From Nicotiana tabacum (taxonomy: Eukaryota > Streptophyta > Magnoliopsida > Solanales > Solanaceae): 64,000 nt of DNA. The notes beneath the pieces were generated by a model that was not told where the DNA came from, did not search any database, and saw only the letters and a list, made by a program, of their open reading frames with translations. Within the stretch, counting starts at the first letter, position 1, and the number at the start of each line of letters is the position of its first letter. Of the stretch, positions 21,836 to 61,939 are shown one piece after another. Location of the stretch: contig NC_134087.1 in assembly GCF_000715075.1 (NCBI RefSeq), positions 186,589,276-186,653,275 on the forward strand, in the 5' to 3' direction. The position numbers and the translations under genes were made by a program.

Positions 21836-21840
21836 AATTT

Positions 21841-27358: not shown

Positions 27359-27363
27359 AAACC
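27359..27363. repeat. Right target-site duplication AAACC
   Basis: Direct copy of 9518-9522, immediately after the CA end of LTR D. Confidence 0.85.
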
Positions 27364-38331: not shown

Positions 38332-39666
38332 TTCAGGGTTCAGAATTCGAGCTTAGATAAATTGTTGTATTTGGTTATATCTGATTTTCATACATGTTTT
38401 GTGCTGAATATGCTAAATGCTACTGCTTTGATATCATTTGAACTGTATATAAACTGTGCCGACACCCTTCTCTCTTCACCTCTGGGGATGTGCTTACTGG
38501 TTGAGACTCCCTATTCTGTTAGTGTCATACCCTGAAATAAAAAAGAGGCTCGGATAAGTTGCAAAGTCGGACGATCTTGCGGGTCCCCGGTACGCTGCCT
38601 CCTCCTCGACTCGAGTTGTCCGCTCGAGTGCACTGTTTAGAACACATACCCAGGTTTTAAACCAAGAATAACTTGACTTCATGCCGGATCCCTAGTAGGA
38701 GCGCTTAATTGCATCATGCTGCATTTGACTTAGGGGACACAACATAGGGGTTGGGTCCGTCTAGGGCTAGCAACCTGAAATGAAAAGACCATCCTGATGC
38801 ATCCTATGTGTTCTGTACATATATTTGTTTCGAACCAGCATGTTGACCGGCTTTTGAATATCGAGAATGTTGGAAAATTGAGAAAAAGAGGAAAAGAGAA
38901 AAGAGAGAAATAACAGTTAGGAGGTTAATTGATTATTTTAGAAAAACTAATGACCAAATACTATCGAAACTCTGCTGAAATTTTGAGAAAATGAAAAAGA
39001 AAAATGCTTTATTTTTAATAGTCTGTTTTACTAAAAGCAAAAGAAAAATAGAAAAAGAGTCTTTTATTGAAAAGGAAAAGAAAAAAAAAGAGAGTTTTTA
39101 TTTTAGTTTGGGAAAAATAGGTTGTTTATTGTTTGTTGAAAATGAAAAAGAAAAAAGAGTCGTTATTTTGTCTTGTTTTCAAAAAAATAGAAAGGGAAAA
39201 ATAGTTTGTCTTACCATGGAAAATGAAAAAAGGGTCTTGTTTTCAAAATATAGTTAGTTTCTCGGCCCGAACTATGCAGGTTTGATTCTCACAGGGCGTG
39301 AGATACGTAGGCAACCCTCATCGGGTCCAACCTCCCCGTTGCAAAAAATAGCCAAAAAACAAATATATCAAATTTTTAATTTTCGTCGTAAATAAGTTAG
39401 GTGATGTCGTTTTTGTCAAAAAATAGCCGAATGTTCCCGAAAGGGACGTCGAAAGGCTGACTTTGCAAAGACAGTCATTTTTGGTCATTTTGATTTTTGA
39501 CCGGTTGACTCTCACAGCTTGAAAATCTTCGTTCTTGGGAGTGCTGAAAGGCCATGTTCGAAAACCGAGTCTTTCATTTTACATTTGAAAAAAGGAAATA
39601 GTTAATTTTGTTCTGAGTCAAATAAAAGTTTTGTTTTTGCTTAAATCACTTTAATAAATGTGCAGG
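38332..39666 (+). other. Leader of element II
   Basis: 5' untranslated leader. 38540-38790 matches element I (7080-7260, minus). 38870-39250 is a purine-rich (A/G) tract. Structured module II-1 lies at 39269-39333, about 330 bp before the ORF1 start. The 88-codon frame in the purine tract is low-complexity and not called. Confidence 0.65.
39269..39333 (+). other. Structured junction module, copy II-1 (before ORF1)
   Basis: GAACTATG, spacer, TGAT, inner hairpin TCTCAC/GTGAGA with loop AGGGC, then ATACGTAGGCA and a second hairpin ACCC/GGGT. The outer stem is CTATG/CGTAG with one G-T wobble. Confidence 0.65.
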
Positions 39667-41715
39667 ATGATCACAATGCAAAACGAACCTTTCTCAATAA
39701 TGACTAAAATCCCTTTCGAGTTGAGGCTATGGTGGAATGATTTAGGCAAAGAAGGACAAGACGAAGTCAAGAAATATCTGAAAGGTCTTACGGGTTTATT
39801 GGAAATCAAGCCTTGAGGTGATATTATAAGAGCGTTGGTCACTTGTTGGGACTCGACGCACAATGTCTTCCACTTCTTAGATTTTGAGCTCACCCCAACT
39901 CTGGAGGAAATCGCCGGGTACATCGGAAATGCTGAGGTTCCGTTAAGAGGAAAATATCTGGTTGCTCCAAGAGCCATCACGGTGCACTAGTTTTTAGACT
40001 CATTAAAGATACCCAGGACAGTCCATAATCCAGATTTGGCAAAAGGCTTCTGCACTCTGCGCTTCATATACGACAGGTACGACCACGTGGGAGGGTTTAA
40101 CAAGACGGACATCAAGCTATGCAGTAAAAATAACCGTCAAAAATGGGATGAGCACAGACGGGTGGCTTTCATGATAACCTTTTTGGGCCTCCTGGTGTTC
40201 CCAAGGAAAGACAATAATATTGATATAAAAGTAGCCGGGGTCGTCAGTACCTTCCTTACTCAAGATGAAAGCACTCTTGCGCCTATGATCGTGTCTGACA
40301 TTTTCCGAGCTCTCACTGCCTGCAAAGCCGAAGGCAACTTTTTTGAGGGGTGTAACTTGTTACTACAAATGTGGATGACCGAGCATCTATGCTACCGTTC
40401 CCAGCTCTTGAGTTATGGTTCGTCTGACAAAACATGTATATGAGAGTTTTACACAAGGATTGACGGGGTTAGTCTGCCTGAAGGAGTAACAGCATGGATA
40501 TCATACTTTCGTACTCTCACGGACAGTCAGATACAGTGGACGTTGGGATGGTTGCCTGTTGAAGAAATCATATACATGCCAGCAGCTAGGTCGCATTTTC
40601 TTTTGATGGGACTTAAGAGCATCCAACCTTATGCTCCATGTCGGGTTCGGAGACAACTCAGGAGATGCCAAACTGTGCCACGGGAGGAAGATCTTAGTGC
40701 TCAAGTAATTGAGATTAGCCCTGATGGACAGTTTCTCGAAGCAAAAGTCCGCGAGATTTGGAATGAATGTCAATGTCTACAAGCAGATACTTGTATGCAG
40801 GATCGGGCCAAAGGAGAAATGTCGCCAGAATACCTCGCATGGTACAGAAGAGAGCTTGAGCATCAGAGGCCAGCTAAAAGACCCCACATCCAGATTTCTC
40901 TGAATCATCACAAGAACAATGGGGTTGGCTAGCAAAAGAAGAAGGCTATCGGGCTGAAATCGGCAAGCTGAAACAACATATTGGAGCTCTGAAATTTGAG
41001 AACAGTGTGCAAGTTGCTGCTGATCAGGGAGAAAAGAACAGGTTGGCCCAAGAAAATGAGGCGCTTAGGGCCCAAATCCAGCAAATGAGGATAGCTGCCA
41101 ATAACCAACAAAGGAGCCGGTCAGACGAGCAGTTGATAAAGAGGCTAAAAAAGGAAATTAGTGAGTGCCGGGATGAGCTGAAAAAAATCCGAAGGCACCA
41201 TAGCAGAACTCCGGGCACAGTGGGTAAAAAGAACAGAAGAACGCACCCATTACATGCAACAATTAAAGAAGGATTATGAAAAGACCATTGCTAGTCTGAA
41301 AAGAAAAGTGGTCACCCTTGAGGATAAGGCAGCTAAGCAAGCTAAAGCTTTTGAGACCGAAAGTGGACACTACTATGACTTACTGGCCCGAATGGAAGTA
41401 GAAATACAGTAGCTATAGGATCAACATCTTCAGGATTCTCATGTGTTGGAGGCTCGCAATAATCAAGTAAGGCGATTGCTTATAGAAAAGGGTCGAACAA
41501 GAGACAGGATTGATACCATTGCCCACGCCATCCTCAGGAGATGTCGGGCATGTGAAGACATGACCCGCACTACCTTCTTTTCGGCAGTAATGATTTATGT
41601 CAAGCGAACCATGTATGAGATGGAGCAACTTGAAAGGGATTTGGCACCTAATCCCGCGGCGAGGCCGAACGATGCCCCGTGGGCACCCACTTTTGAAGCA
41701 CTAATGTATTCATAG
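39667..41715 (+). pseudogene. ORF1 of element II: DUF7745-like domain plus coiled coil
   Basis: About 683 codons from the ATG at 39667. The first two thirds (39667-40880) match the layout of plant DUF7745: a short N-terminal segment, F-x-LTPTLEEIAGYIG, an RFIYDRYDHVGGF block, FLGLLVFPRKD, a FRALTACKAEGNFFEGC block and LGWLPVEEIIYMPA. The last third (about 40920-41715) is a Lys/Glu/Gln-rich coiled coil ending in a conserved CRACEDMTRTTFF block. In-frame stops: TGA near 39814, TAG near 39988, TGA at 40441. Frameshifts near 40880 and 41200, and a TAG near 41411. The function is unknown; it may be structural or regulatory, since it has no catalytic motif I recognise. Confidence 0.78.
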
Positions 41716-42356
41716 ATCGAGTCTGTATTTTCCATTCTAGAGTTTGTTGTTTGTCAGTCTATTTTCTTTTTGCGTCCAAGTATACTAGTATGTTCAGAGT
41801 TTGTATTTGAGTTTAGTTGGAGTCCGTTATTTTCCATTTCAAAATGTTTAGTTTGTAATAGAATGTTGTGGTAATGAAAATCTGAAAATTCCCAAAATTT
41901 GTTCCTTTATTTTGGCACTTATTTTCACGAACTACGCCTGGTCTGATTCGTGCGGGGTCACGATACGTAGGTAATCTCAATAGGATTCGACCGTAACCAA
42001 GTAAAGAAAAGAAAACAAAGAAAGGGAAAGAAGAAAGGGAAAAGCGGAGAGACGAGGAAAAAATGAATGAAAATAAGAGAAGAGAGAAAAGAAAAGAGAA
42101 AAGAAAACAAAAAGAAAAGAGAAAGCTTACAGTTGGAACTAAGGAAATGTCGGGATGACGCATGCGGTTGAACAAAAGCATAATAGAAATGGTTAACTGT
42201 ATAGGTGTATTCATGCCCAATGTGCGGTTATCCAATCTGTTAAAGCCTAATCGCTAATGGAATTGTTGTCTAAATGTGTGAGTCTAGGTAGGTGGTTAGT
42301 TGTTTGGCATTCTGGTAACTCATCCATACAACACCCGGTCTAAAGATAAAGTGAAC
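41716..42356 (+). other. ORF1-gag spacer of element II
   Basis: Non-coding. It has module II-2 at 41929-41992, followed by a purine-rich tract (41995-42125), then a block shared with element I up to the gag start (42150-42356). The order matches 3605-4436 of element I. Confidence 0.65.
41929..41992 (+). other. Structured junction module, copy II-2 (ORF1/gag)
   Basis: GAACTACG, spacer, TGAT, inner hairpin TCGTG/CACGA with loop CGGGGT, ATACGTAGG, second hairpin AATC/GATT. The outer stem is CTACG/CGTAG. Confidence 0.68.
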
Positions 42357-44218
42357 ATGACTGGCCCGGAATCTGACACGAGTATTGTTGACCCATCTAA
42401 AGAACTAGAAGAAATGGACGTTCATGCAATGAGGGAGTAAATGTATAAGTTGAAACAACAGATGACTGAAATGTACCAAGCATGGGCGAAGGGGCATCCA
42501 CCACTAGTTTATCCCGCTAACCCGGCTTATATCCCACTATTGGCTCAGCCTCAGGAGCCACCCACTGTGAATTCATCTCCAGCATTTCCACTCTACCAAC
42601 AATGCCAAGGCACCACTTCTCATACATCACAGGCTCCTCCATCCAAACAAGTCTCATACCCTCCTCCACCAATTACTCCCGTTTGTGTAGCACCTCCGCC
42701 TGCTACCCTACACCGATCCCCCAGTGAACCTCTGTTCCAGACGCACGACAACCAGTATTATCCCCCTAAGCCTACCTTCAAAGTACCAGAACCCTACTCT
42801 TATACCCCTCATCTTGATCTCACGGCAGGCACCGAGAAGCCGCCCAAAAACCCTGAGCAGGAGGAGATGATCAGAAAGGTCAAAAGCCTGGAGCAATCAT
42901 TCCGAGACATAAGGGGTTTAGGGGGCCAAGTAAGTGTGGCCTATAAAGATTTATGTCTGTTCCCAGATGTTCAGTTACCGGTCGGGTTCAATATGCCTAA
43001 GTTTGATTTGTACGACAAGCATGGCGACCCAATAGCACATTTAAGAGGATTTTGTAGCAAGATGAGAGGAGCGGGAGGGAGAGATGAATTGTTGATGGCA
43101 TATTTCGGCCAAAGTTTGAGCGGATCGGCGTTGGAATGGTACACTAGACAAGACCATAGCAGGTGGTACACCTAGGATGACTTGGCCCAAGCCTTCGCTT
43201 GTCAGTTTCAATAAAATCTTGAAATCATCCCAGATCGACTGTCATTGACAAAGATCGAGAAGAAGCCCGGTGAGAGCTTTCGAGAATATGGGTTCCGTTG
43301 GAGAGAACAAGCAGCGAGGGTTGACCCCCGATGAAAGAGAGTGAAATGGTTGATTATTTCTTGTAGGCTTTGGAGCCCACCTATTTTGGTCATTTGGTGT
43401 CAGCAGTGGGCAAGTCCTTTAATGAAGTCGTGAAAATGGGAGGCATGGTTGAGGAGGGACTCAAATCCAATAAGATCATGAGTTATTCAGCAATCAAAGT
43501 AACCAACCAAGCCATTCAAAATGGCACTGGGGGTGTGTTTGGGAAGAAGAAGAAGAAGAAGAAAGAAGAGGTTGCAACTGTCGAATCCGGAGTATGGTCC
43601 AGGTCTAAAAGCCCTTCACCCTATTACAACCAACCCAGACCCCACCACCCAAATTACCCGTATACCCCATATGGCTTTCCTCAACAGTATTATCCACCAC
43701 TAGAGCCACACTTTTCCGTCCATCATGCCCAAACTTATACCCAGCCTCCAGCTCACGCGCAATGGCGTGCGCCGGCTACCCAAAACACATACCCAGCTCC
43801 ACAAAACACATATCCACACCTGAGGGCTTATAGTCCAGGATTCAGCTTCCGCCCAAACCAGGCTTTCAGAAACGAGAGAATGCAGAAACATAAAACATTC
43901 ACTCTGCTGGGAGAATCCTATACTACTCTTTTCCACAAACTGAGACAAGTAGGCCTGTTGAACCCGGTTGAGGCTAAAATGCCAAATCCCCTTCCTAGAA
44001 ATTTGGACCATTCAGTGAGCTGTAAGTATTGTTCAGGGGCTCTCGGACATGATACTGAGAAATGTTGGAGATTAAAAACTATTGTGCAAGAGCTTATTGA
44101 CACAAACAGAATCGAGGTTCAGGCCCCGGAGGCGTCCAATATCAACCAGAACTCGTTGCCAGCGCATCATGAGGCCAACATGATTGAACTGATACATAAG
44201 GGAGCAAAGTTTAAATAG
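42357..44218 (+). pseudogene. gag (capsid/nucleocapsid) of element II
   Basis: Start ATG at 42357, aligned with the gag start of element I. Blocks: N-terminal coiled segment, Pro-rich spacer (42520-42860), retrotransposon gag domain (about 42930-43440), a short poly-Lys tract (43543-43570), a Tyr/Pro-rich segment, and a CCHC knuckle (C-X2-C-X5-H-X4-C, 44021-44065). Broken by an in-frame TAA at 42438, stops at 43173 and 43213, a frameshift near 43330 and a TAG at 44216. Gag would form the particle and bind RNA through the knuckle; this copy cannot give a full product. Confidence 0.85.
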
Positions 44219-45240
44219 CCCTCACAGACAGTCATGCTGATCCGTTCTAGTGAAGCCAAAGTGAATGAAAAGTCAGCTAGTGTGAAACCATCGGTTCAGT
44301 TGAAAAGAATAGACAATAAGCCAGTTGTGGTAATGGGGAAAGGATCTTCCGTTGTTGCGAAGAAACCAAAGCCGATCAAGGTAGTGGTTCGGGGAGTATC
44401 AAGCACACCTGCGGAAGTCGTGAGGGGGGCTCACATAGAACCAGTTGTTAAAAAGCCAGTAACTCAGTTACCAGTAATTGACAGTAAAGTCATCCCGTGG
44501 AAGTATGGACAGGTAGTTGTGACCTACAAGGGGAAGGAAATCAAAGAGGAAGTCTGTGAAACACAAGGTTTAACTCGCTCGGGACGTTGTTTTGCCCTCG
44601 AAGAGTTGAGAAAGGCTAGGGCTCCCAAGGAAAATCCGGCGCCAGTTAAGAAAGCTATTACGGAGGTAGAGGTAGAAGAGTTCTTGAAAAAGATGAAAGT
44701 GCAAGATTATTCTATTATTAAGCAGCTAAGGAAAATGCCAGCCCAAATCTTGTTGCTTCCGCTGCTTATCCACTCGGATGAACATCGCCGGGCTCTGATG
44801 AAGATATTGAACGAAGCTCATGTCCCCGATAAAATTTCAGTGAATCATTTGGAGAAAATCGCAAACAAAATCTTTGAGGTAAACAGAGTGACATTTTCTG
44901 ATGATGAATTGCTCGTGGAGGGTACAGAACATAATAGAGCTCTTTATTTAAACGTGAAATGTGAAGATTCGGTAGTCACTCGAGTACTGATTGATAATGG
45001 GTCCAATGCCAATATCTGTCCTTTGTCTACATTGAACAAGTTGAAGGTTGATAATGAAAGAATTCATAAGAATAACATCTGGTTCGGGGGTTTGATGGTG
45101 GTGGTACAGACAGAGTGGGTGACATCGTACTTGAAATGACAATTGGTCCGGTTGAGTTCACTATGGAGTTTCAGGTGTTAGACATGGCGGTGTCTTATAA
45201 TGTTCTGTTGGGGCGACCATAGATCCATGCTGCCAAAGCG
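44219..45240 (+). pseudogene. Protease region of element II
   Basis: Continues the gag frame after the TAG at 44216. A basic linker (44234-44640) leads to an EVEEFLKKMK..DYSI block and an RRALMKIL block, followed by an aspartic protease with the active site LIDNGS at about 44987-45004. The ILLGRP-type flap-end motif reads NVLLGRP near 45200. A frameshift near 45085-45110 splits the domain between frames, and a TAG follows at 45220. The family protease is a retropepsin-type dimer that cuts the polyprotein. The linker is missing from element I. Confidence 0.8.
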
Positions 45241-45899: not shown

Positions 45900-46088
45900 G
45901 TAGTGGGTTTTGTTTTCCTTTCGTTCACCTGGATTATTCCAGGGTTTGTAATTCAGTTGCTATGTTCCGTCCGTTTGGATGAGTTAAAACCCTGTTATCT
46001 TTACATTCAATGAAATGCAATTCCTTTTCTTTCTTAATTCCTAATTTTGTTTCCATTTCTTTTTCTTTTTCTTTTTCTTTCTGTACAG
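45900..46088 (+). other. Predicted intron between pro and pol, element II
   Basis: GT donor at 45900 (tgGTAGTG), a strong pyrimidine tract at 46020-46080 and acceptor TACAG ending at 46088. Removing 189 bp joins the upstream frame to the pol frame in phase (two bases of the codon before, one after). Protein similarity between elements I and II starts exactly after the acceptor. Spliced introns before pol are documented for Ogre elements. Confidence 0.68.
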
Positions 46089-47647
46089 TTCTTTTTATGC
46101 TGATATCGATGACATGACATGCATGAGGAATCTTTGGCCCAGTTTTAAAAGCCAATCCAATTGAGAAATAATAGTGCAAGAAATCGAGTGTCATGATGAG
46201 GTGGAATATGATGATGACAAGGCCTATGAGGAAGTTAGTAAAAAATTAAGTGACTTTGAAGAAAAACCCAAACCTAACCTAAATGACACAAAAGCAGTTA
46301 ATCTAGGGGACCCAGACAATGTTCATGAAACTAAAATAAGTGTTCATCTGGAGCCACAACTCAAGGAGGGGATAATCAAAGCATTGTTCGAGTACAAAGA
46401 TGTGTTTTCATGGTCGTATGATGATATACTGGGTCTAAGTACCGATTTAGTGGTTCACAAATTAACCACTGACCCGACATTCCCTCCTGTCAAGCAGAAG
46501 TTGAGAAAGTTCAAAACGGACATAAGTGTAAAGATCAAAGAAGAGATTACCAAGAAGTTCGATGCGAAGGTCATTCAGGTTACACAGTATCCCACCTGGT
46601 TAGCTAATGTTGTGCCTGTGCCAAAGAAAGATGGCAAGACCAGGGTGTGTGTCGATTATCGGGATCTTAACAAGGCAAGTCCAAAAGACAATTTTCCACT
46701 GCCGAATATCCACATATTAATTGATAATTGTGCCAAGCATGAGATTGGCTCTTTTGTGGATTGTTACGTGGGTTATCATCAGATTTTAATGGACGAGGAA
46801 GATGCAGAAAAGACGGCATTCGTCACGCCATGGGGAACATACTACTATCGGGTCATGCCGTTTGGTTTGAAAAATGCTGGGGCAACTTATATGAGGGCAA
46901 TGACAACAATATTCCATGATATGATACACAAGGAAATTGAGGTGTATGTGGACGATGTGATTGTAAAGTCTAGACAGCAATTTGATCATGTCAGGGATCT
47001 AAGAAAGTTCTTCCAAAGGCTTCGCAGGTACAATCTCAAGCTTAATCATGCAAAATGCGCGTTTGGGGTGCCGTCTTGAAAGTTGTTGGGGTTTGTAGTC
47101 AGCCGCCAGGGTATTGAACTAGATCCATCAAAAATCAAGGCCATCCATGAATTGCCACCTCCGAGGAACAAGACCGAGGTGATGAGTTTGCTGGGGAGAT
47201 TGAATTATATCAGCAGGTTCATCGCCCAGCTCACGACAACTTGTGAGCCTATCTTTAAGCTCTTAAATAAAGACGTCGTGGTCACGTAGACAAACGAATG
47301 CCAGGAGGCGTTTGATAAGATAAATGGGTATTTGTCAAATCCACCCGTGTTGGTTCTGCCAGAATCAGGGCGACCTTTAATTCTATATTTAACGGTATTG
47401 GACAATTTGTTTGGCTGTGTATTGGGTCAGCATGATATCACTTGAAGGAAGGAGCAGGCCATCTATTACCTCAGTAAGAAGTTCACACCCTACGAGGTTA
47501 AGTATACTCATCTTGAAAGGACATGTTGCGCCCTAACTTGGGTGGCATAGAAGCTGAAACACTATTTGTCATCTTATACTACTTACCTCATATCTCGTTT
47601 GGACTCGTTAAAGTATATCTTTCAGAAGTCTAGACAACAATTCGACG
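46089..47647 (+). pseudogene. pol of element II: reverse transcriptase and truncated RNase H
   Basis: RT core in the frame 46174-47079: KKDGK..VCVDYRDLNK, the FVDCY motif with the first catalytic Asp, VMPFGLKNAG, and YVDD (residues 258-261 from 46174) with the other two catalytic Asp. Thumb and connection continue to about 47289, then RNase H with LGQHD and YYLSKKFTPYEVKYTHLE. Stops: TGA in the upstream linker at 46162, TGA 47077, TAG 47287, TGA near 47443, TAG near 47549. Near 47640 the sequence jumps from the RNase H region to the pre-integrase segment, so most of the second (archaeal-like) RNase H seen in element III is deleted. Confidence 0.85.
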
Positions 47648-47648
47648 G

Positions 47649-48812
47649 TTGGCAAGTGGGTTTTTCCTTAGTGGAGGAGTGTTGTACAAAATAACTCCAA
47701 ACCTCGGGTTGTTGAGGTGCATGGATGCGAGGCAGGCCACATCTATCATGACTGAGGTACATTCGGGAGTCTGTGGACCGCATATGAGTGGATATGTTTT
47801 GGCAAAGAAGATCCTACGGGCAGGTTACTATTGGCTTACTATGGAGCGAAATTGTATCAGTTTCGTACGTAAATGTCATCAGTGCCAAGTTCATGGAGAC
47901 CTGATTCATTCTCCGCCATCAGAACTACATAAGATGTCCGCACCATGGCCTTTTGTTGCCTGGGGCATGGATGTTATTGGGCCAATTGATCCAGCAGCGT
48001 CAAATGGGCACATGTTTATTCTGGTAGCTATAGATTATTTTACCAAATGGGTGGAAGCTAAGACGTTCAAGTCTGTGACCAAGAAAGCTGTGGTGGATTT
48101 TGTGCATTCGAATATTATTTGTTGGTTTGGGATCCCAAAGGTGATTATCACAGACAATGGGGCTAATCTCAATAGTCATCTGATTAAGGAGACATGTGAG
48201 CAGTTCAAGATTACTCATCGTCATTCCACTCCATACCGCCCTAAGGAAAATGGTACGGTTGAGGCAGCCAATAAGAATATAAAGAAAATACTCCGGAAAA
48301 TAGTGGAAGGATCTAGACAGTGGCATGAAAAGCTGCCTTTTGCATTATTGGGATACCGCACCACTGTTCGTACCTCGGTGGGGGCAACTCCTTACTCTTT
48401 GGTGTATGGCACGGAAGCAGTGATACCCGCAGAAGTGGAAATCCCGTCTCTCCGAATCATAGTAGAGGCTGAGATCGATGATGATGAATGGGTGAAAAGC
48501 CGCCTTGAGCAGTTGAGTTTGATTGACGAGAAGAGATTAGCATCAGCGTGTCATGGTCAACTGTACCAGCAAAGAATGGCAAGAGCGTACAATAAGAAAG
48601 TGCGTCCGAGGAAGTTTGAAGTCGGACAGTTAGTGCTGAGACGTATTTTTCCTCATTGGGCTGAAGCAAAAGGAAAGTTCGCCCCAAATTGGCAGGGTCC
48701 ATTTGTTGTAACCAGAGTGTTGTCTAATGGTGCACTATATTTGACAAACATAGAAGGAAAATGTGTAGAAATGGCCATCAATTCCGATACGGTCAAGAGA
48801 TACTATGTATGA
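47649..48812 (+). CDS. Integrase domain of element II pol (open frame)
   Basis: Inserts element cDNA into host chromosomes. 387 uninterrupted codons. HHCC zinc-binding site: His38, His45, Cys76, Cys79. Catalytic triad D108, D169 and E205 with the canonical 35-residue D-E spacing (GMDVIG, IITDNG, NGTVEAANK). The C-terminal part holds AYNKKVRPRKFEVGQLVL and WQGPFVV, ending KRYYV. There is no chromodomain, as expected for Tat. The domain looks intact, but it is in a different frame from RT because of the upstream deletion, and the start codon given is only the first ATG of the open frame. Confidence 0.85.
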   Translation: MASGFFLSGGVLYKITPNLGLLRCMDARQATSIMTEVHSGVCGPHMSGYVLAKKILRAGYYWLTMERNCISFVRKCHQCQVHGDLIHSPPSELHKMSAPWPFVAWGMDVIGPIDPAASNGHMFILVAIDYFTKWVEAKTFKSVTKKAVVDFVHSNIICWFGIPKVIITDNGANLNSHLIKETCEQFKITHRHSTPYRPKENGTVEAANKNIKKILRKIVEGSRQWHEKLPFALLGYRTTVRTSVGATPYSLVYGTEAVIPAEVEIPSLRIIVEAEIDDDEWVKSRLEQLSLIDEKRLASACHGQLYQQRMARAYNKKVRPRKFEVGQLVLRRIFPHWAEAKGKFAPNWQGPFVVTRVLSNGALYLTNIEGKCVEMAINSDTVKRYYV

Positions 48813-49114: not shown

Positions 49115-49172
49115 GAACTACGTTTGACTTGATCCCGAAAGGGTACGTAGGCAGCCTCTCTAAGGTTCAGTC
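49115..49172 (+). other. Structured junction module, copy II-3 (after integrase)
   Basis: GAACTACG, spacer, TGAT, tight hairpin CCC-GAAA-GGG, TACGTAGGCA, then a second hairpin CCT/AGG. The outer stem is CTACG/CGTAG. The GAAA loop is shared with copy III-3. Confidence 0.68.
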
Positions 49173-49439
49173 ATACCAAAATAAAATCCAAAAGTCCCCA
49201 AGTAAGAAACTGGGGCAAAAGTCGTGGTTGTTGTAAGAAATCTGATTTCGAAAGTTGTAATTTTAACCCATTTTGAAATTATTTTGAGACATTCATACCC
49301 TTTTTTTCTAGCCCCGTCCAAAGCCCACATTACGGTCCAAAGAAAGACCTTCTGATCAATCTTTGAGAAATGCCAAGTCAAGCAGGTAAATGTAATTCAT
49401 GTCTGGGGCAACACTCTGGTTTAAGAAAGAAAAGCAAAA

Positions 49440-51449: not shown

Positions 51450-51516
51450 AAACTATACTGACCTGATTCCTATTTAGCCCAGGATATGTAGGCAACCTCC
51501 GAAGTAGGGTGCGGTC
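51450..51516 (+). other. Structured junction module, copy II-4 (near PPT)
   Basis: Opens AACTATA, then TGAT, inner hairpin TCCT/AGGA, then TATGTAGGCAACC and a second short stem ACC/GGT. The outer stem is CTATA/TGTAG with one wobble. Confidence 0.55.
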
Positions 51517-51617
51517 AAACTTTTTTTAAAAAAAAAATTATTCACACGGAATATTCAAACGGGCAAAAATCGCTCATTTCCGCTCACTTATCTTTGCACG
51601 AAAGCTCTTCGTTTTTC

Positions 51618-51635
51618 CGGGCAAAGAGGGGCAGC
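51618..51635 (+). other. Polypurine tract of element II
   Basis: GGGCAAAGAGGGGCAGC directly before the 3' LTR. It primes plus-strand synthesis. Element III has AAGCAAAGAGGGGCA at the same place. Confidence 0.8.
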
Positions 51636-54600
51636 TGTGAGAACGTGATTTTTGCCCAAAGCAAATTATTCCCAGAAATTCAAACAAAATAATTTTTTTA
51701 TTATTTTATAATTTTTGTGAATTTTGGTTTCATGTTCTGCTAATTGTTGCATTTACATGTGCATTTTAATTCATATGAAAAATACAAAAATATGCATTTG
51801 CATTTAGGATTTAATTTTATATTTTAGTATTAATTAGGGGTTAATTTGTTTTAGAACAAAATGTGAAGAAAATCACAAAAATAGTCCACTTTGCATTTTA
51901 ATCGTTTTAATTGTGAATTTGCCGTGAAATAGGTTTTAAATAATTTTAGAATTTAATTAATTTAGCTTTGACATCTAATAGGATTTTTTATTTTTAATTG
52001 TGCATCCTTATAAAATTAGGAAAAAATAAAACAAAAATACAAATTGAAAAATGAGTAAGAGAATTAAAAAAGAAAAGGGGAATAAATGAAAGAGGGATGC
52101 TCACAATTGGTCCCTTTCAATTAATTTCACCCAGCCGAAAAGAAAAAACACAATCAGACCAAACACACCCCAGAAACCGGCCCAAAACCGTCCCAATACC
52201 CGGTCCACCTGTTACTAAACCAAAACGACGTCGTTTCGTTGCTTATTGATCCAGACCGCCGAGGTTAATCAATCCAACGGTCGAAAAGCTCAGATCGTTT
52301 GGTATATTAGTGTCCGAAACTAACCCCCCCCCCCTCTCAGATCCCCCTCATAATCAAACCAAACCCTAATCCCAGCCGCCCCTGTTCTCTCCGGTGTAAT
52401 GTGCCGCCGGCGAACGCCACCTACGCTAATGGCCACCAGAAATACACCCGAAAATCTCATCATTTCCCTCTTTCTAACCATGCCACTGACTTCCTTCGAA
52501 TCCACTCCGACAGCTTCTAATCTTTGATTGAAGTTTTCCTGCCAGAGCACCACCTTCTCCAAATCCAACCAAATTAACACCCTGGAACCGACTTGACCTC
52601 CTCTTTCAAACCCCCCAAACCTCGTCCTTCGAATCTGACCAGATATGTTCGAATATTAAATCGAAGTTTTCCGACAAAACCCGGGTTTCTCCAAATTTCA
52701 CCAAATTGATTCCACATAGTCACCTCACCTCCCTCGTGACAAATTCACCATCAGTGGCATGCAAACATCACTAGAATCAGGCGAATTTTAAATCGAGAGG
52801 TAATAGAATTTTGAGCTGTGTCAGCGAAGTTTGATTTTTCTTTTCTTTTCTTTGTTTAGTTCTCCTCTTTTGCTTCTGTTCTGATACTTGTTAATTTCTA
52901 GTTTACTTTCAATTTTTGTCAATTCTGTTTAATTTCATATTCCGATTTGACTGTTTAATTCTAGTTCGTTTTGATTTCTGGTTTTAGTTGGATTGGTAGA
53001 TTGGAATTTGTTCTGTTTTGATTCAATATTGGTTTTGTTGTTAAAGTTGTTCTAGTTTTAGTTTAAATTCCGTTTTAAATATTAGTTCGATCTTTTGCTT
53101 TGGTAGTTTAATTGCCTTCGTCTGGGCTCGATTAGTTTGAATTTTTTATTTAGTATGGCTTATAATTAGTTTAAGTTAATGATGTTAGTTAGAAATTTCC
53201 TTAGATGGATTTAATATTCCAGTTTCATACTGATGGATAATTGATTAGTTAGTGTGATTGTTAACGGTAATTGGTGGTTTGAAATTCAGCAGCTAGTTTA
53301 GATTTAAGAGATTGGTTATAGCTGTTTGTTTTAACTAATGTTAAGGGGTTGGGTCAGTTAACTGAAGTAGGTAATTTCAGGTTGAGTTCAAGAGTATTTC
53401 AGATATTTAGGATTGAGTAACACATGATAGTTGAAACTAGAATCTTCTAGAATATTCCAAAGTGACTATAGTGTAGATTTCAATAATTTTAATGGGATTA
53501 CTTGGGTAACAAGTTAGAAAATAAGGGACTAATTGAATAAATAGATAAGGGACTGATTTGTAAACAGAAAATAAGGGCTGCCCTCAGCTCTGCCTATAAA
53601 AGGCATGCCTAAATGCCTTAATGGGGAGGTTTTTTTTTCGGCCATCTAATTCCCCCAAAAAACTCTCTCTCTCTCTGAAATTTTCAGATCTGAAGTAGAA
53701 ATTTAAATTTCAAAAAAAAAAAACCCAATACCAAACAAAAACTCAAAAATCAAAAAATATCACTATTTCATTGGAAATTGTAGATTGATGTTGATGTTCT
53801 AGTTACTAATTCACATCCTCTAGTTCACTCTTTGATTGCTGATGTTCAGAATGGTTGCTGGGTGATTTCGAGCAGTTTTTGGGTCTATTAGATTGTGTTT
53901 GATTGAGATTTAGTTATGTGAAAATATGCTGATGCCTTTCTAGTATAACTGAGTGCATTTCAAGGGTTTTTGTTTAATCTGCTTGTTTCATTTGAGTTCT
54001 GAACCTTCCTGGAATTTTTGGATTCATTTTCTGGGCTGTTTGTTGTTCCGTACTGTTGAAAATTGCTTACTGCTACTGCTGCTCGTGCGTTGCTTCAGCT
54101 GACTTCCAACTCTTCTTTGTTTTGTGGTCTAAATATCAGGTACATGTCCTGAATCTCAAATCATGTAGCTGTCCAGTTGGAATGAAATGAAATGGAAGTA
54201 TAACTTCATTGGAAGCTTCAGTTATTGCTGTGTTTTATCATAGTTGATTGTAGTAGTTTGGACTGTAATTAAAATTGTTTTACAATGATTTAAATTGGTT
54301 TGGACTGTTAAACTCATGGACTGTTCAGGAGATTTGATCGTTTGTTAGACATGTTGTAGTTCAATTTCATTTAGTGTAGTTAAGTTTTGAAAATCAGAAG
54401 TTATTCAAAGTATAAAGCGATCTTGTGATTCACAATCCTCACTCGTCTTAATAACTGGCAGTGTAATCCTGGAGTCACATTGTTTGTATTTAGTAAAGGT
54501 AATTGTGAGTTAGTTTAGAGCTGGACGTGTAATTTGACTGTTGGATTTGCTTATCACTAATTAGCCTAGAATAGTTTGTTGATTAACTCTGTTAAAAGAC

Positions 54601-55781
54601 ATTAGTTTGAAAATTGATTCTGGACTTTCCTTTTTAGTTGATAATTGGATATTTGAATGATTGTGGATAATTAGTTAAGGTTAATTGCAACATGAGTTAG
54701 GAAGTATTATTAACTAGGAACTGAAGCAAAACTGGGTTGAACGTTATTAGCATAGAATTAGTGTAGAATTTCAAACTCAGCATGTTAAGTGCATCACGTG
54801 TGTGTTAACACAAAATTAGACCCCCAAGTATAACACGGATACGTTAATGCTGTTGTTGATCTCGCCTGATTTTTGCTAATGGGCCAAGCTGAGCACAAGG
54901 TGTGGCTCGCGCTCTGCAATGGGAACTCTGACTGGGCAGCATGTTCTCAAGGCCCAACTCGCTGGTTGGTTTCAATTCAGCAGGGATTGGGCCAATTACT
55001 TGAGCCCAGAATTGCTAAAGGGTCCTTATTAATATATTTTGTTTAAGTAACTCCAATTATTTAGGGCCTCTTTTTCTTTATTCTTAGAAACAAAAATATA
55101 GAAAATCGTAGTTGCTTTAGGTTTGTCCTGTAATTAATAAAATGAGACGAGCCTCGCAAAACAAAACATATAAATTGCGGGGCCCTCAATGAACATTGTG
55201 TTAAAATACTTAGAATTCAGGATGGGGCGTTTAGCGAATTTCACGGCCTTCCACAAAATAATAATATGCTAGACTCTTTAAGCACGACTTTAATAAAATT
55301 ACGTTCCTAAACTCGGGTGCGCATTGATGCGGCCCAAATCCAAATCTCAACGGAGTCGAAATGTGTTGAAAATTACGGGTGCATTGATTGCGACGTGGTT
55401 CGAAACGCGTTTTCACGACATTGCATTTCTTTTAAAATAACGATAAAAGCGGTTTACGAGTAAAAGGCGCATAAGCTAGCATGTATGAAAATCAGATAAA
55501 ATTAAATACAATAGTTGAGCGACCGTGCTAGAACCACGGAACCCGGGAATGCCTAACACCCTCTCCCGGGTTAACAAAATTCCTTACTCGGATTTCTGGT
55601 TCGCGGACTGTTAACAGAGTCATACGTTTCCTCGGTTCGGGATACAACCGGTAACTTGGGACACCATTAATCTCCCAAGTGGCGACTCTGAATAATAATA
55701 ATAAATCCCGTTCTGGTTGTCTTTTAATTGGAAAAACTCCTTTATGCCTTTACGGGGTGTAGTGAAAAAGGAGGTGTAACA
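51636..55781 (+). repeat. 3' LTR of element II
   Basis: 4146 bp from TGTGAGAACG to GTGTAACA, matching 34144-38290 throughout with scattered substitutions and small indels. The TATA box is at 53595. Its last 59 bp belong to the 168-bp tandem duplication. Confidence 0.93.
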
Positions 55782-56054
55782 TTCCCGAGTCCTGTGGTTC
55801 TAGCACGGTCGCTTTATTGACTACATTTGACTTAAATTAATTTTGGATAAATTGTGATTTATTTGATTTTCAATATTTTATCTATCATCCTTTAATTGGA
55901 AAAACTCCTTTATGCCTTTACGGGGTGTAGTGAAAAAGGAGGTGTAACATTCCCGAGTCTCGTGGTTCTAGCACGGTCGCTTTATTGACTACATTTGACT
56001 TAAATTAATTTTGGATAAATTGTGATTTATTTGATTTTCAATATTTTATCTATC
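55723..56054. repeat. 168-bp tandem duplication across the LTR/flank junction
   Basis: 55723-55890 and 55891-56054 are near-identical. Each copy holds the last bases of the LTR, its CA end, TTCCC and about 105 bp of flanking LTR III. It must have formed after element II inserted, unless it is an assembly error. Confidence 0.88.
55782..55786. repeat. Right target-site duplication TTCCC
   Basis: Direct copy of 34139-34143, repeated again at 55950-55954 by the tandem duplication. Confidence 0.88.
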
Positions 56055-56407
56055 CGCTTTTATTTATTAAAATTTTTGAAGAGTGATTTGAATAATATTA
56101 AATTGTCCTAACCGCACCACGCGAGCGAATGTGCGATCGAGACGAATTTTATTAATTTTATCATAACAGCACTACGCAAGCGAATCCGCAGTCATGACAA
56201 AAATTAATACTACGTTATTAATTTTTTAATTTTTATTTTATTTTTTGGAAGAATTAAAAACATTTTGAGAAAGTTAACTAAAAAAAACTATCACGCTACG
56301 CAAGCGAGTCCGTGAATGAAAAGGTTAGAGTGCGCCTACTAGTTGCCTAGTAGTTCAACTCATTAATGAAAAGAAAATGTGTTAATCAATTAGTAACGAA
56401 AATCTGA

Positions 56408-56436
56408 TTATTATTATTATTATTATTATTATTATT
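56408..56436. repeat. (ATT)n microsatellite
   Basis: About ten uninterrupted ATT units. Confidence 0.9.
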
Positions 56437-56576
56437 TTCTAGCCTTATTGTTGGTAAAATTATGCAAATAAATGTTGGACCAACTCAATCTATTTTAAAG
56501 AAATAGGCCAACTTCTTGTTAAAGGAGAAATGGGCCAGCTTAAGGATTTTAGAAGATGGGACAACTATTTATTTAT

Positions 56577-57452
56577 GGAAATTTTACAACCTATAGAATA
56601 CATTAGTACCCTATTTATATTAAATAAATACCATTTTAAAATATTACATCCTATAAATACCTTTTATTCTTTATAGCAAAGAATCTAAATATAGTTCCAT
56701 CCTACAATTAAGGCACCATATATGCTAAAAAATATTTTTCTCTCTCCTTTTTTGTATTTTCTCTCACCTAATTACTGTATAACTCCTAAACACGTTCTCT
56801 CTCTCTTTTACATTGTGAAATATGCAATGTATTCAACTGTATTTTTGTTTGCAACTGTTCAATTTTCCAGTAAGTTTTCAAATGTATTCATATGTATTCA
56901 GCTTACTTATATTTTATGTCATGTGTGTGGTATCTAGTTTTTAATATGTATTTAGCCTTGTTACTGTATTTAGTCTTCTGTAAGTGTTTGTAGTTGTATT
57001 GATATTTATTCAAAACTGATTTGCTATGAAATATGCAATTTTGTAAGTGTTTGCTCTGTTTTTTGCTTCTTTTCACGAAAAAAGGGAGAAGATTATTCTG
57101 CTTTCTTTGGGCAGATTAATGTGTACTCATATTATTTGTTTGAGTTAAATTAGGAGACTATCATGTGAATTTATTTCCTTCCGTTTTTAACAAGTTTAAC
57201 TTCCCAGAATTTTGTGCAAAAATGTTACTGTATTTTATTTGTATTCAGCTTGAATACAAATAAATACAGATACCCATTCTGGAGTTCCCGTTTTTACGTC
57301 TATTTTTTTGGTTGTATTAATGAATACAACTGCTTAAATACATGAAATACATTGTATAAAAACATAAAAGGTATCTATAACAAGTAATATAGCAAAGAGT
57401 ATCTATAAATGACTAATTAGGGCTAAAAGATGGTGCTTTATGAAAAATTCTC
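56577..57452. mobile_element. Non-autonomous Mutator-like element with 9-bp TSD
   Basis: About 876 bp flanked by perfect 9-bp copies TTTATTTAT (56568-56576 and 57453-57461). The ends are diverged inverted repeats of roughly 100 bp, beginning GGAAATTTTACA and GAGAATTTTTCA, and match again at 'ATATTAC...TATA.ATACCTTTTAT'. The interior is rich in 'tgtattca' words with no transposase. The 9-bp duplication fits Mutator; the AT-rich TSD lowers certainty. Confidence 0.6.
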
Positions 57453-58701
57453 TTTATTTATTTCTTAGAAAAAAGAGAAAAAAAATGGACCACCTCGCTT
57501 AGATTTGCATTGGGCCTAAAGAATTGAGTTTTTTGCTCAAATTCTTTGTTTGCTTAAATGTTCAGCCTTTTTCCACACCCCTTTATCTTTATTCAGTTTT
57601 ATTTATTATTTGACTCCTAATTAGTTTACTGATTTATGTCCACTCAATACAATGACTAAAGGTACAATAACAACATAAACACTTAATAAAAATAAATAAT
57701 AAAATGAACTACATATGAAATAAACCTTCATTTATATATATATATACTCCTGGAATGAAAATATTGTTAACATATACTTCTTTCAACTTTCAGTATAAGA
57801 AACTTACTTCCAACACCAATTCTAAGAAAAGATAAATTAAACTAATGTTACTTTGTTGCAACTTATAGCCAAGTAGACATATTTCGGAATTCAAACCACA
57901 TGTCGAAATTGAAAACTAAAGCATTTCTTGACATAGCCAGCATTTATTCACAAACATGCGTACTTACCATTCATAAACTAAAAAAAATGTATTTGCAATT
58001 AACAAAGAGCACAAGTTAAAACTTCAAACTTTTTTACATCAAATTCAAAGTAATCTGAGTACTACATAGTTGAGATAAATACCTAGATAGCAGAGAAGTG
58101 AGCAACAAGCAGCACAATGGACTCCAAATTTATACAGAAACTATCAAACTAGCTCATGTTAAACCAACGACAACAGAAATCAGCTCAAGAACACCCAAAT
58201 AACTGAGGGACAACAGTATATTTTAAAACCAAACATAAAAAGACTGAAACTCTTTCTTCTCTAAAATCTCCTGCTAACAATTGTTTTCAAAGTCTTATCT
58301 AGGTGTTATAAACTCACTGATGTTGTTCTCTCTCCTTTTTTTCCGAGTGTATCTGTTTATATAAAATAAGAGAGAGTGTAAGTATGAGTTGTAAAGAGTA
58401 AGAGTTAGAAGGTAAGAGGAATCGTGAGATGTGTGTTGTGAGTGTAATGTGGGGGAGTTTGGGAAAAGGGATAAAGTGAGAGGGGACAAAGAAAAGTGGG
58501 GGAAAAAAGAGAATGGAGAGGGGACAAAGAGTTGGGGATAAAGGAGAGTGGAGTAGGGAATACTTTTGTGAGTGGAAAATGAGTGTATGCTTAGTGTAAA
58601 GTATCTGAGGGAATAATTGTGTTGGTGGTAAGGTGTGTGCTAAATAACGTGAGGGAGTTGAGAAAAATTCAAGAATGGTCAAAAATTAGGTGCTCATAGC
58701 A

Positions 58702-58716
58702 TGCCCCTCTTTGCTT
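58702..58716 (-). other. Polypurine tract of element III
   Basis: AAGCAAAGAGGGGCA on the minus strand, next to the LTR start. Nearly the same as the PPT of element II. Confidence 0.75.
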
Positions 58717-58813
58717 GGAAACATGAAAAGTTTTCAGGCAAAGACAAGGTGAGCCATGTGACTAATTTTTGATCAATTCATTACTCAAAAGGAAAAGAAA
58801 TAAAAGATAGGGT

Positions 58814-58881
58814 GCAACCGAGTCATGGTTTTGGACGGCCTACATATCTTAGGTTATAGGGGAGTTAGGTCACGTGTAGCT
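58814..58881 (-). other. Structured junction module, copy III-4 (near PPT)
   Basis: In element sense: GCTACACGTGACC, a diverged inner loop, then ATATGTAGGCC. The outer stem CTACA/TGTAG is fully paired, where II-4 has CTATA/TGTAG. The inner hairpin is weak, so this is the least certain copy. Confidence 0.45.
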
Positions 58882-59642
58882 CAAAGAAAAGGCTAGAATA
58901 CTGAGTTAAGGAGTCGAGTGAGGTTTCGTCGAGGCTCCGGTACGCGGCTTTGTTTATTACATCAAAAATATAAATAAAAAAATACATTAAAGAAAATGAA
59001 AATACAAGATCATATCTATAAGTCCTCTGAAACTTGATCTTGTGTCTTGACTGGTTCTTCTTTGCAAAATCTGATCGGAACCTTGATGCTTGCTAATTGC
59101 AGGTGCTATTTTATTCTTCTACAGCTCTTCTGATCAAAACGGGAAAATGCAATGCATCGTGACTTCGGTCATGTCTTGAACAGTCTGCATCTTTTCATCA
59201 CTTTTGTATTTTGGACTCACTTCTTTTTCTTTTCATTTCTTTCTTCTGGATTGAGAATTCTTCTTTTGATCATCTCGAACCCTGTGCCTTGAGGTCAAAC
59301 CTGCTCATATACTAAAATAAACAAACGAACGGAATTTTTTCGCCCCAGTTTTCATTAGGAAAATTTCGTGAGTTATTGTAACAAAATTCTAAACTACTTC
59401 TTTTAAAGCACTAAAGTGTCGGAATTGGTGTACCCTAGAAAAATACAATTCTTTGGGATGGTGTACCCTGATTATCTAAATGGTGTCTCAATTAAGGATT
59501 GACGTACCTTATGTTGGAAAACAAAGCTAGGGAATGACGTACCTTATACTGGTAAGGAAATGTAACTAGGGGTTAATGTCATGTATTATTGAAAAAGGAA
59601 ATGTAACCAGGGGTTGACACCCTGTATTACTGACAAAAATGT

Positions 59643-60655
59643 TGAATCCCCCTGGGTGATAAAGTTCTCCCTGGGTTAAGCTACAAAAACTAAGCATGGG
59701 CGAAGAGTACTTCTACCTGGAAATATGAGATAGATCCCCCTAGGCGAAAAAGCTCTACCTGGATTAAGCTATGAAAACTAAGCCTGGGCGAAAAGTACTT
59801 CTACCCAAAAATATGAGTTGGATCCCCCTAGGCGAAAAGGTTCTACCTGGGTTAAGCTATGATAACTAAGCTCGGGCAAAAAGTACTTCTACCCGTAAAT
59901 ATGATATAGATCCCCCTAGGCGTAAAGGTTCTGCCTGGGTTAAGCTATGAAAACTAAGCCTGGGCGAAAAGTACTTCTACCCGAAAATATGAGCTGGATC
60001 CCCCTAGGAGAAAAGGTTTTACCTGAGTTAAGCTACGAAAACTAAGCTTGGGCGAAAAGTACTTCTACCCAAAAATATGAGATAGATCCCCCTAGGAAAA
60101 AGGTTCTACCTGGGTTAAGCTATGAAAACTAAGCATGGGCGAAGAGTACTTCTACCCGGTACTATGAGCTGGATCCCCCTAGGCAAAAAGGTTCTACCTG
60201 AGTTAAGCTGCGTAAAACAACCTGAGCGAAGAGTACTTCTACCTGGCACTACGGGCTGGATCCCCCAGGCGAAAAGCTTCTACCTGAGTTAAGCTGCATA
60301 AAATAACCTGAACGAAGAGTACTTCTACTTGGAACTATGGGCGGATCCCCCTAGGCGAAAAGGTTCTACCTGGGTTAAGTTACGAAAACTAAGCCTAGGC
60401 GAAAAGTACTTCTACCCGAAAATATGAGCTGGACCCCCCTAGGCAAAAAGGTTCTACCTGGGTTAAGCTATGATAACCAAGACTGGGCAAAGATTACTTC
60501 TACCCGGAAATATGAGCTGGATCCCCTAGGCAAAAAGGTTTTACCTGGGTTAAGTACAAATAACAACCTGAGCGAATAGTACTTCTACCCGAAACTATGA
60601 GCTGGATCCTCCTAGGTGAAAAGGTTTTACCTGGGTTAAGCTACGTAAAAATAAG
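59643..60655 (-). repeat. Tandem array, about 12 copies of an 88-bp unit
   Basis: Units start near 59645, 59733, 59821, 59909, 59997, 60085, 60172, 60259, 60343, 60432, 60520 and 60605, so the period is 84-89 bp. Each holds GATCCCCCTAGGCGAAAAGG, a CTACCTGGGTTAAGCT word and 'aagtacttctaccc' on the plus strand. It lies in the 3' UTR of element III, a known seedbed for satellites in Tat elements. Confidence 0.9.
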
Positions 60656-61880
60656 AGGTGTGAACAATAGTGATGTATGCCGAAAGTAAAAGAAAAATAG
60701 AGATTTTAAGGAGCTTACATTTGGTGACATTCGTTCTTTTAGGATCGACATTCTGCACCGCTTTGTTCCTGCTTCAAACAAAGAAAAATTTATGAGTTTT
60801 CAAAGTGGTGGTTAGTTTTTGGCCTTGATGCCCTGAGTAGCTTGTTTCACGGCCACTGTTGTCGAAGAACCGATTCCGTCAGCGTGGTACCAAGATGCTC
60901 TGTCGCTCTGTATCATTTGCTGGAGACCTTGGATTTACAATATTGCCCCCAACAGTTTCATACCCAGATGTCCATGGTACCGCTACCCTTATCTCTAAGG
61001 CAATGCATTTTTTCTTTAAAATCAAACTCAGTTGTCTTGCACCCAATATCAGTTTGTGTCCGTAGTGCTTATCAACTTTTCTCATGAAACAGGTCTTGCT
61101 CATGTGACTTTTCAGTTTCTTTGAAACAATTTGTTCGCCTGATTGAATGAGATCTCAGATGTATTCGTGCCTTCGTCAATGCTATATATACCCCAAATTG
61201 TGCTCGATATCGCGGGAAAACTGTAGCTAGTTTTGTAGTCATTTCTTTGCTTCGCCTTTGATGCAGGATTAGACCGAAAGGGACTCAAAGAAAAATTAAA
61301 GGTAAAAACATAATAATAATTGAAAGTGAAAATGACCTGTGTTTAAACAAAAGGTGTCCTTTTCGGGGAAAGGAATAGGGAGACTTATCTAGAGGTGTGT
61401 GCCGACTTCAATGAATCATGACATGCATTTTGGACTAGACGCCTGATCTGTCTAGGCTATCTAATTCTCAAAATCCAATGCAAATGTTCATCTTGAATTT
61501 GTCTTGATTGTGCTCATGCCGGAGAATAAAAGGCCCTCATTCGGCTAGTAGCGCCTTTTGCAGGTTTTCGCTAACTAACCTCTCTCATTTCTCTGCTCAC
61601 TGCCGCCTTATAGTTCCTGTACGGGTTTTCACTGATAAGACTCTTTCATTTTTTTAACTAAGATACTGCATGAGGGAGGTTACCCAACTCCCTTGGTATG
61701 GGGACTTCAAACATTCTCAAAAAGCATCGATCAGAAGTTCTTGAAAGGTAAAAAAGGTGTAATGAACCTTGAATTGAATTACAACTTTTGGAAACCACTT
61801 TTACAGAAACATCGTGAAATAATACAAACTTCTGCCCCAGTTTTGGAGTATTGGAAATATGGATACTTTTGTTCTGATAG

Positions 61881-61939
61881 GACCGAACCCGGGGTAAGGC
61901 TGCCTACGTATCCTTTCGGAATCAGGTCGGACGTAGTTC
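61881..61939 (-). other. Structured junction module, copy III-3 (after integrase)
   Basis: In element sense: GAACTACG, spacer, CTGAT, tight hairpin TCC-GAAA-GGA, TACGTAGGCA and a second short hairpin. The outer stem is CTACG/CGTAG. It corresponds to II-3, which has CCC-GAAA-GGG: one compensated pair. Confidence 0.68.

Follow-up and report, generated by a model that had tools for sequence, protein, structure and literature searches.

A predicted RNA pseudoknot recurs at coding-block junctions of Tat/Ogre-like retrotransposons in Nicotiana tabacum

Ogre/Tat elements are large plant retrotransposons. How a single transcript serves the expression of their separate coding blocks, ORF1 and gag-pol, is understood only in part: in pea and Medicago, an intron separates gag-pro from pol (excerpts of PMC6317226). 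We analysed a 64-kb stretch of the Nicotiana tabacum genome (contig NC_134087.1, positions 186,589,276 to 186,653,275; the window) that carries element II on the plus strand and elements I and III on the minus strand, the latter two each only partly inside the window. All three contain a short module, predicted from sequence to be an H-type RNA pseudoknot with two inserted hairpins, and its copies stand at fixed junctions of the element, here called M1 to M4. We tentatively favour the idea that the module resembles the exoribonuclease-resistant RNAs (xrRNAs), which block Xrn1 without cofactors, and that it may be a roadblock to 5'-to-3' exoribonucleases that would shield the RNA downstream.

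The xrRNAs of plant viruses lie in intergenic regions or 3' untranslated regions, depend on a pseudoknot and stop Xrn1 at the base of their first helix (P1); conserved nucleotides immediately precede the 3' pseudoknot strand, and some genomes hold two copies (excerpts of PMC6299227). In the coremin xrRNA, a conserved spacer joins a hairpin of 4 bp, its loop of the YGAD type, to a second hairpin (excerpts of PMC10520033). For Tat/Ogre elements, no conserved RNA pseudoknot is mentioned in the excerpts of two descriptions (PMC6317226, PMC9289625). We found no published report of the module in the open-licence PubMed Central literature, and the cases checked among literature occurrences of its motif strings were a primer or marker for another gene.

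No family of Rfam release 15 reaches its gathering threshold in the window, and a search of 13 loci (E up to 10 and 5) gave eight weak matches to unrelated families, all far below gathering; the one match that overlaps a module, CrcZ, scores 15.9 bits against a gathering threshold of 95. Membership of a known RNA family was rejected on these results, and a tRNA gene was rejected because ARAGORN found none in the window. We rate the module as a new family within a known kind of RNA, the cis-acting retroelement pseudoknot. Its junctions are fixed even in a shortened derivative, and it would be a concrete cis-acting RNA candidate for the question of Ogre expression; with tens of thousands of copies it would, in our judgement, be one of the commoner structured RNA motifs of a plant genome.

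Fold, covariation and conservation of the module

Read in element sense, the module opens with GAA, followed by P1 (CUACG or CUACA), 2–4 nt, the 4-nt 5' strand of P2, UGAU, the P3 hairpin, UA, the 3' strand of P1 (P1'), a G that is usually followed by C, the P4 hairpin, one nucleotide that is nearly always C, and P2'. The helix order is P1-P2-P3-P1'-P4-P2', P2 being the pairing of the word before UGAU with the word after the second hairpin. The unpaired letters are invariant or nearly so: the GAA before P1, UGAU, UA, the G after P1' and the single C before P2'. Module length varies from 58 to 70 nt in one-nt steps, and we therefore rejected coding conservation as the cause of the likeness. The window holds the following copies:

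39269..39333, plus strand: M1 of element II (II-1), 64.6 bits; P1 39272-39276/39306-39310, P2 39279-39282/39329-39332, P3 39287-39291/39299-39303, P4 39313-39317/39323-39327
41929..41993, plus strand: M2 of element II (II-2), 67.4 bits; P1 41932-41936/41966-41970, P2 41940-41943/41989-41992, P3 41948-41952/41959-41963, P4 41973-41977/41983-41987
49115..49173, plus strand: M3 of element II (II-3), 63.5 bits; P1 49118-49122/49146-49150, P2 49126-49129/49169-49172, short P3 hairpin, P4 49153-49157/49163-49167
51450..51517, plus strand: M4 of element II (II-4), 60.9 bits; P1 51453-51457/51487-51491 (A-U form), P2 51460-51463/51513-51516, P3 51468-51472/51480-51484, P4 51494-51498/51507-51511
6710..6774, minus strand: M1 of element I (I-a), 58.9 bits; P2 AGTT/AACT, P3 TCCCA/TGGGA, innermost P1 pair mismatched
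4009..4073, minus strand: M2 of element I (I-b), 74.3 bits; P3 TCATG/CATGA, P2 GATC/GACC with three of four pairs
61880..61939, minus strand: M3 of element III (III-3), 60.6 bits; P2 GACC/GGTC, P3 TCC-GAAA-GGA
58815..58882, minus strand: M4 of element III (III-4), 46.6 bits, the weakest copy; TAAC in place of UGAU, P2 GACC/GGTT

A covariance model (R1) trained on 74 rows, the eight window copies among them, was run on the whole window with filters off. It returned exactly these eight copies (46.6–74.3 bits) and, at its sensitivity, no ninth; the next-best match scored 12.4 bits. A preliminary description of this DNA had listed the same eight, each in element sense and in its proper place. It had folded them as two successive hairpins, which captured P1, P3 and P4 but missed the P2 pseudoknot, a helix as well paired as the inner hairpin. 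The CTACG/CGTAG outer stem that it proposed is present in M1–M3 as CUAYG/CGUAG (I-a has AGTAG and thus a G-A mismatch) but not in either M4 copy of the window, where the stem reads CUAYA/UGUAG.

Covariation was scored on copies parsed by a loose pattern from the window and from fetched loci. Outside the window, these 95 copies come from the first-listed matches on contig C1 rather than from a random draw, and all belong to one genome. In a MAFFT alignment of 74 of them (A1; at most three per word class, duplicates removed), 92.5% of 1,390 cells were paired (P1 99.5%, P2 92.9%, P3 91.3%, P4 86.4%), versus at most 38.6% in slid controls. Three P1 pairs are invariant, and the innermost covaries (47 G-C, 24 A-U, 1 G-U and 2 unpaired); all four P2 pairs show both-sided changes. 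The covariation score was 0.442, versus 0.242 for shuffled and at most 0.105 for slid structures. Two further measures on A1 were no higher than in shuffles: the number of pairs with both-sided changes (82 of 500 shuffles as high) and further pair types (358 of 500). The paired stem differences quoted in the preliminary description are real, and P1, P3 and P4 covary across the 74 distinct copies.

P2 was examined separately by a permutation test on the 95 copies, in which P2' was located by P4 and the C alone, blind to P2. Four of four pairs formed in 76 copies, three in 11, two in 5, one in 2 and none in 1; this gives 349 of 380 paired cells, versus 293 ± 5 (maximum 314) in 10,000 permutations. 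In four of the 95 rows (L010, L051, L066 and L079), P2' was placed by hand after the pairing had been seen; these rows entered the tree, the evolved-null test, the edge-identity profile and the A1 sequence ends, not the permutation test. On a tree of 94 copies, 28 branch changes fell on both sides of a pair and 22 of them were compensatory (P1 1, P2 6, P3 9, P4 6), whereas slid structures had 3–9 both-sided changes, 0–2 of them compensatory. Compensatory events per column pair averaged 1.67 over 12 comparable structure pairs versus 0.08 over 961 control pairs. For the strictest null, a tree was inferred from the same 78 columns and 20 alignments were evolved along it. Here the top five of all column pairs were structure pairs (two in P3, one each in P1, P2 and P4); only one P3 pair and one P4 pair beat every null alignment. 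Covariation backs all four helices of the predicted pseudoknot, and with them a recurring RNA structure whose changes compensate and whose place is fixed at Tat/Ogre-like junctions.

The innermost P2 pair, followed genome-wide in the M3 frame, reads C-G 5,195 times, U-A 5,428, C-A 519 and U-G 318; these counts are an association between large families plus decay rather than independent events. Element-sense cells hold 80 G-U versus 54 A-C (78 versus 36 leaving out the outermost P4 pair), an excess expected of RNA of element sense. Some M3-like modules have a longer P3 with words such as TTTGACC (L049 5582–5640, also L010, L077 and L079). Further covarying forms, with a longer P4 (TTAGA...TCTAA) and a CCTC/GAGG P3, occur among M3 variants outside the alignment (e.g. 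C1:3771430).

The module is an island of conservation. Between two elements its identity is 0.62–0.86, versus 0.32–0.66 for the 110-nt flanks, and it is higher at four of four positions. The 5' edge is sharp: in the 56 of 95 copies with full flanks, between-position identity is 0.18–0.35 up to 4 nt before GAA and 0.33–0.48 in the last three nucleotides. Likewise, when the L092 M2 is compared by BLAST with other loci, 12 of 15 matches start within 2 nt of its first base, a count that leaves out its own place and the close relative L009.

Same-position copies in different elements are 0.83, 0.86, 0.79 and 0.64 identical, and different positions within element II 0.57–0.71, the ranges overlapping via the M4 pair. 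From these identities we read the four positions as probable old paralogues kept apart. Old paralogy would suit a feature of the DNA itself (a promoter, a recombination joint or a site for a protein) or common descent with no RNA role. We regard this explanation as very improbable: compensatory events occur in the pseudoknot, G-U exceeds A-C in element sense, and the module is more conserved than both flanks at all four positions. An internal DNA promoter, one of the roles offered in the preliminary description, would leave the P2 covariation unexplained.

The genome searched was the window's own (3,996,098,646 bases). The strict G-C pattern GAACTACGN{4,12}TGATN{6,25}ATACGTAGGCA had 43,428 exact matches (22,052 + 21,376) and its reversed control none, which excludes a chance origin of the module. 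A variant with an A-U pair closing P1 had 27,228 matches and its reversed control 18. The two patterns differ at the closing pair; the genome must therefore hold tens of thousands of modules, a count that takes in many decayed copies and large families. Viral contigs searched with the motif gave two matches, neither of them a module by eye, and those searched with the reverse transcriptase (RT) and integrase (INT) frames gave no relative. Genome contigs searched with the INT frame gave one distant locus (L091), in which the module was not found.

Host elements and placement of the module

The hosts are Tat/Ogre-like retrotransposons as judged from their coding content. Open reading frame 1 (ORF1), between M1 and M2, matches the plant mobile domain (PF10536 / DUF7745) in L047, L031 and L006; in L006 the plant mobile domain is below cut-off and DUF7745 above. 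The gag frame after M2 matches Retrotrans_gag above cut-off in L037, just below it in L006 and weakly in L047, and downstream of gag L037 encodes RT, RNase H (RT_RNaseH), a second RNase H-like domain (RVT_3) and INT. A plant mobile domain ORF1 and a second, archaeal-type RNase H are Tat/Ogre hallmarks (excerpts of PMC6317226). Gag, RT-RNase H and INT (the coding blocks as seen in related loci) and multi-kb long terminal repeats (LTRs) are likewise common to Tat/Ogre elements and the hosts.

The order M1-ORF1-M2-gag-pol-M3-M4, on one strand, was found in eight of eight completed long elements (element II and seven on C1). M1 and M2 are 2.4–2.8 kb apart, M2 and M3 7.2–7.8 kb, and M3 and M4 2.3–6.8 kb, for loci that were selected for M3-type matches, with spacings taken by hand and each M4 being the next one listed downstream, not proved to belong to the same insertion. 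A ninth element (L045/L046) has M1-M2-M3 with 8.0 kb between M2 and M3, and a tenth (L039) has M2-M3 plus a listed M4. The order is also unchanged in shortened elements. L092 has M1, M2, M3 and M4 at 68, 821, 2780 and 8260, with M2-M3 cut to 2.0 kb, no plus-strand frame above 238 aa and none of at least 100 aa between M1 and M2; L049 has five modules and L040 three. Neither of the two outcomes that would have refuted the preliminary description, a lack of covariation or copies placed at random relative to the ORFs, was observed. Its statement that the copies bracket each coding block is right as to the order, but between M3 and M4 no coding block was recognised.

Some loci depart from one module per junction. 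L049 has an M3-like module 1.2 kb beyond the usual M3. Several M3-type pairs lie ~1 kb apart (e.g. C1:6479920 and 6481090), so that some elements have five modules. Two M1-type modules stand 0.2–0.8 kb apart on one strand at C1:1644184/1645001 and C1:3344824/3345045.

Distances from the modules to their neighbours were taken at a few loci each, the first methionine being the first ATG of the open stretch, not a proved start. From M1 it is 311 nt to the first methionine of ORF1 in L031 and 307 nt to that of an open frame in L042; from M2 to the first methionine of gag it is 292 (L006), 311 (L047) and 470 nt (L037). M3 follows the INT stop by 302 nt in element II and 143 nt in L037, and the last long frame by 182 (L041) and 266 nt (L047). 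The end of M4 is 105 nt from the polypurine tract in element II.

Purine-rich tracts beside the modules, also proposed earlier, are clear at M2, where the next 100 nt are 61–93% purine and strongly A-rich in all 13 copies with enough flank (window 41994-42100 included) and the preceding 400 nt 43–51%. They are not clear at M1 (48–58%, 8 copies), M3 (52–61%, 4 copies) or M4 (36–49%, 4 copies). A purine- and A-rich leader after M2 in 13/13 copies, and the position of M1 and M2 some 0.3–0.5 kb upstream of ORF1 and gag, would suit a cap-independent translation element in each module that starts translation of the block behind it. That role is unlikely, in our estimation: no ORF stands directly behind M4 of element II or M1 of L092, and AUGs between the module and gag are not depleted. 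Separate translation of ORF1 and gag, as proposed in the preliminary description, is weakened as the sole role, since L092 keeps M1 and M2 around no frame of at least 100 aa and AUGs are not depleted after M2. Stop-codon readthrough was rejected because the 265-aa frame of element I stops 363 nt upstream of M2.

Candidate roles of the RNA

A roadblock to exoribonucleases would fit the module on several counts: the compact pseudoknot, the sharp 5' edge with its conserved unpaired GAA, the C retained ahead of P2' and the repetition along one RNA. It would also fit a module that stands upstream of coding blocks and again in the 3' region, and it would be compatible with full-length reverse transcription. 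In this mechanism, the P2 pseudoknot would close the RNA round its 5' end and resist pull from the 5' side, while reverse transcriptase, arriving from the 3' side, could still copy through. Transcripts that had been decapped or sliced would then decay only as far as a point just upstream of GAA at each of M1–M4, and the leftover RNAs would start ahead of ORF1, ahead of gag-pol, within the 3' non-coding part and ahead of the polypurine tract. Among viral xrRNAs, the xrRNA_D of Tombusviridae and Luteoviridae is like the module in its compact pseudoknot, its placement, its repeated copies and its letters before the 3' pseudoknot strand (excerpts of PMC6299227). The module shares with xrRNAs a covariation-backed pseudoknot, a single P2 pair reaching E 0.05 in the evolved-null test.

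If the roadblock is real, a further and more doubtful step would make the module the first xrRNA in LTR retrotransposons and the founder of a new class. A series of four roadblocks might turn the decay of the giant Ogre transcript into stable RNAs (ORF1, gag-pol, 3' noncoding and polypurine-tract end), subgenomic RNAs as some plant viruses make them, from tens of thousands of genomic copies. An exoribonuclease block of this sort would carry xrRNA biology over from viruses to transposons and account for transposon RNA fragments that persist.

Several observations weigh against the roadblock. The architecture of the module is unlike that of coremin and of xrRNA_D: the module has an extra P4 hairpin and its 5' pseudoknot strand lies between P1 and P3, whereas in xrRNA_D this strand lies in the apical loop. 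In P2, the pseudoknot on which the mechanism turns, the strictest null gives the best pair an E of 0.05 and the next 2.4, and at its innermost pair C-A mismatches (519) exceed U-G (318) genome-wide, so this pair is not purified in single copies. Nested minimum-energy folds of element II M1–M4 are no better than shuffles (z -0.14, 0.53, -0.27 and 0.17), and the nested part of the proposed fold averages -7.5 kcal/mol versus -14.3 for the pseudoknot-free optimum (74 copies). We weigh these energies as neutral to mildly negative because the energy model cannot score a pseudoknot or tertiary contacts. The 3' edge is blurrier than the 5' edge, with identities of 0.23–0.59 across the next 30 nt. In L092, M1 has no ORF behind it, and a coding subgenomic RNA would be useless there. 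AUGs are no rarer downstream of M2 than upstream: across 13 pairs of 400-nt stretches there are 127 after and 128 before, although some of the later stretches extend into gag. This count disfavours simple scanning from a 5' end at the module. Finally, near-invariant P1 letters would also be expected of a protein-binding site.

Coremin (Benyviridae and others) and the module both place two small hairpins around conserved letters, in a plant setting, and they have the word AACUAC in common, which we take for chance. Membership was rejected on the lack of a conserved hairpin before GAA and the presence of P2, as judged by eye on A1 and from upstream conservation; no motif search was run.

The near-invariant P1 letters suit protein contact, and with it a packaging or ribonucleoprotein signal: a knot repeated along the genomic RNA that would dock Gag or the ORF1 protein and so select the RNA into particles. 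The shortened and presumably non-autonomous L092, L049 and L040 retain modules in order, as would be predicted of a module that an element must carry in cis to be mobilised by the proteins of another. Retention in a derivative with no coding blocks fits a cis-acting RNA role in general and suits packaging at least as well as the roadblock. A docking site, however, needs neither a fixed placement at coding-block borders nor a sharp 5' edge at GAA, and we place packaging next after the roadblock, as possible but on balance doubtful. If true, it would provide a tractable plant retrotransposon packaging signal.

A self-cleaving ribozyme with the topology of the hepatitis delta virus (HDV)-like ribozymes, cutting before GAA, is possible from topology alone. 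The module has their helix order and a short J1/2 spacer, and both occur in retrotransposons, non-LTR ones in the case of the ribozymes (excerpts of PMC4908430). The nearly invariant C in J4/2 and the little conserved sequence more than ~3 nt upstream of GAA would also fit. The module differs from these ribozymes in the UGAU inserted between P2 and P3, in the near-invariant P1 letters and in the 3 nt that separate the conserved 5' edge from the start of P1. HDV-like ribozymes cleave at the first nucleotide of P1, and their catalytic core comprises a conserved L3, J4/2 and the P1.1 pairs. In the module, L3 varies in both sequence and length, J4/2 is one nucleotide, no constant P1.1 partner and hence no second pseudoknot is seen, and Rfam gives no HDV match; on these features membership of the HDV-like family was rejected. 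In addition, four cuts per genomic RNA would presumably destroy the template for reverse transcription. We consider cleavage quite unlikely.

Other features of the window

Element II has these further features:

34144..38290, plus strand: 5' LTR, with 96.3% identity to the 3' LTR (4,153 aligned columns)
38295..38320, plus strand: primer binding site region (a stretch like a primer binding site); in Tat/Ogre elements this site is complementary to tRNA-Arg
46165..47079, plus strand: reverse transcriptase frame (RVT_1, E 6e-29)
47634..48812, plus strand: integrase frame (rve, H2C2), its stop 302 nt upstream of M3
51623..51635, plus strand: polypurine tract, immediately 5' of the 3' LTR
51636..55781, plus strand: 3' LTR

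The RT, RNase H and INT regions of element II are identifiable yet broken. No Pfam family was found in the other long frames scanned in element II or in those scanned in element I, among them the 265-aa frame between M1 and M2.

In element III, an 88-nt tandem array (59634-60655) lies between M3 and M4; judging from BLAST, L049 and L092 probably have tandem arrays in this interval too. A large array of diverged repeat segments occupies 9523-27360, with unit recurrence at ~0.5, 3.0–3.2, 5.5 and 5.9 kb; its segments are 60–98% alike and contain no stop-free frame of at least 180 aa and no module. A 168-nt direct duplication (55720-56065, 96% identical) spans the 3' end of the element II 3' LTR.

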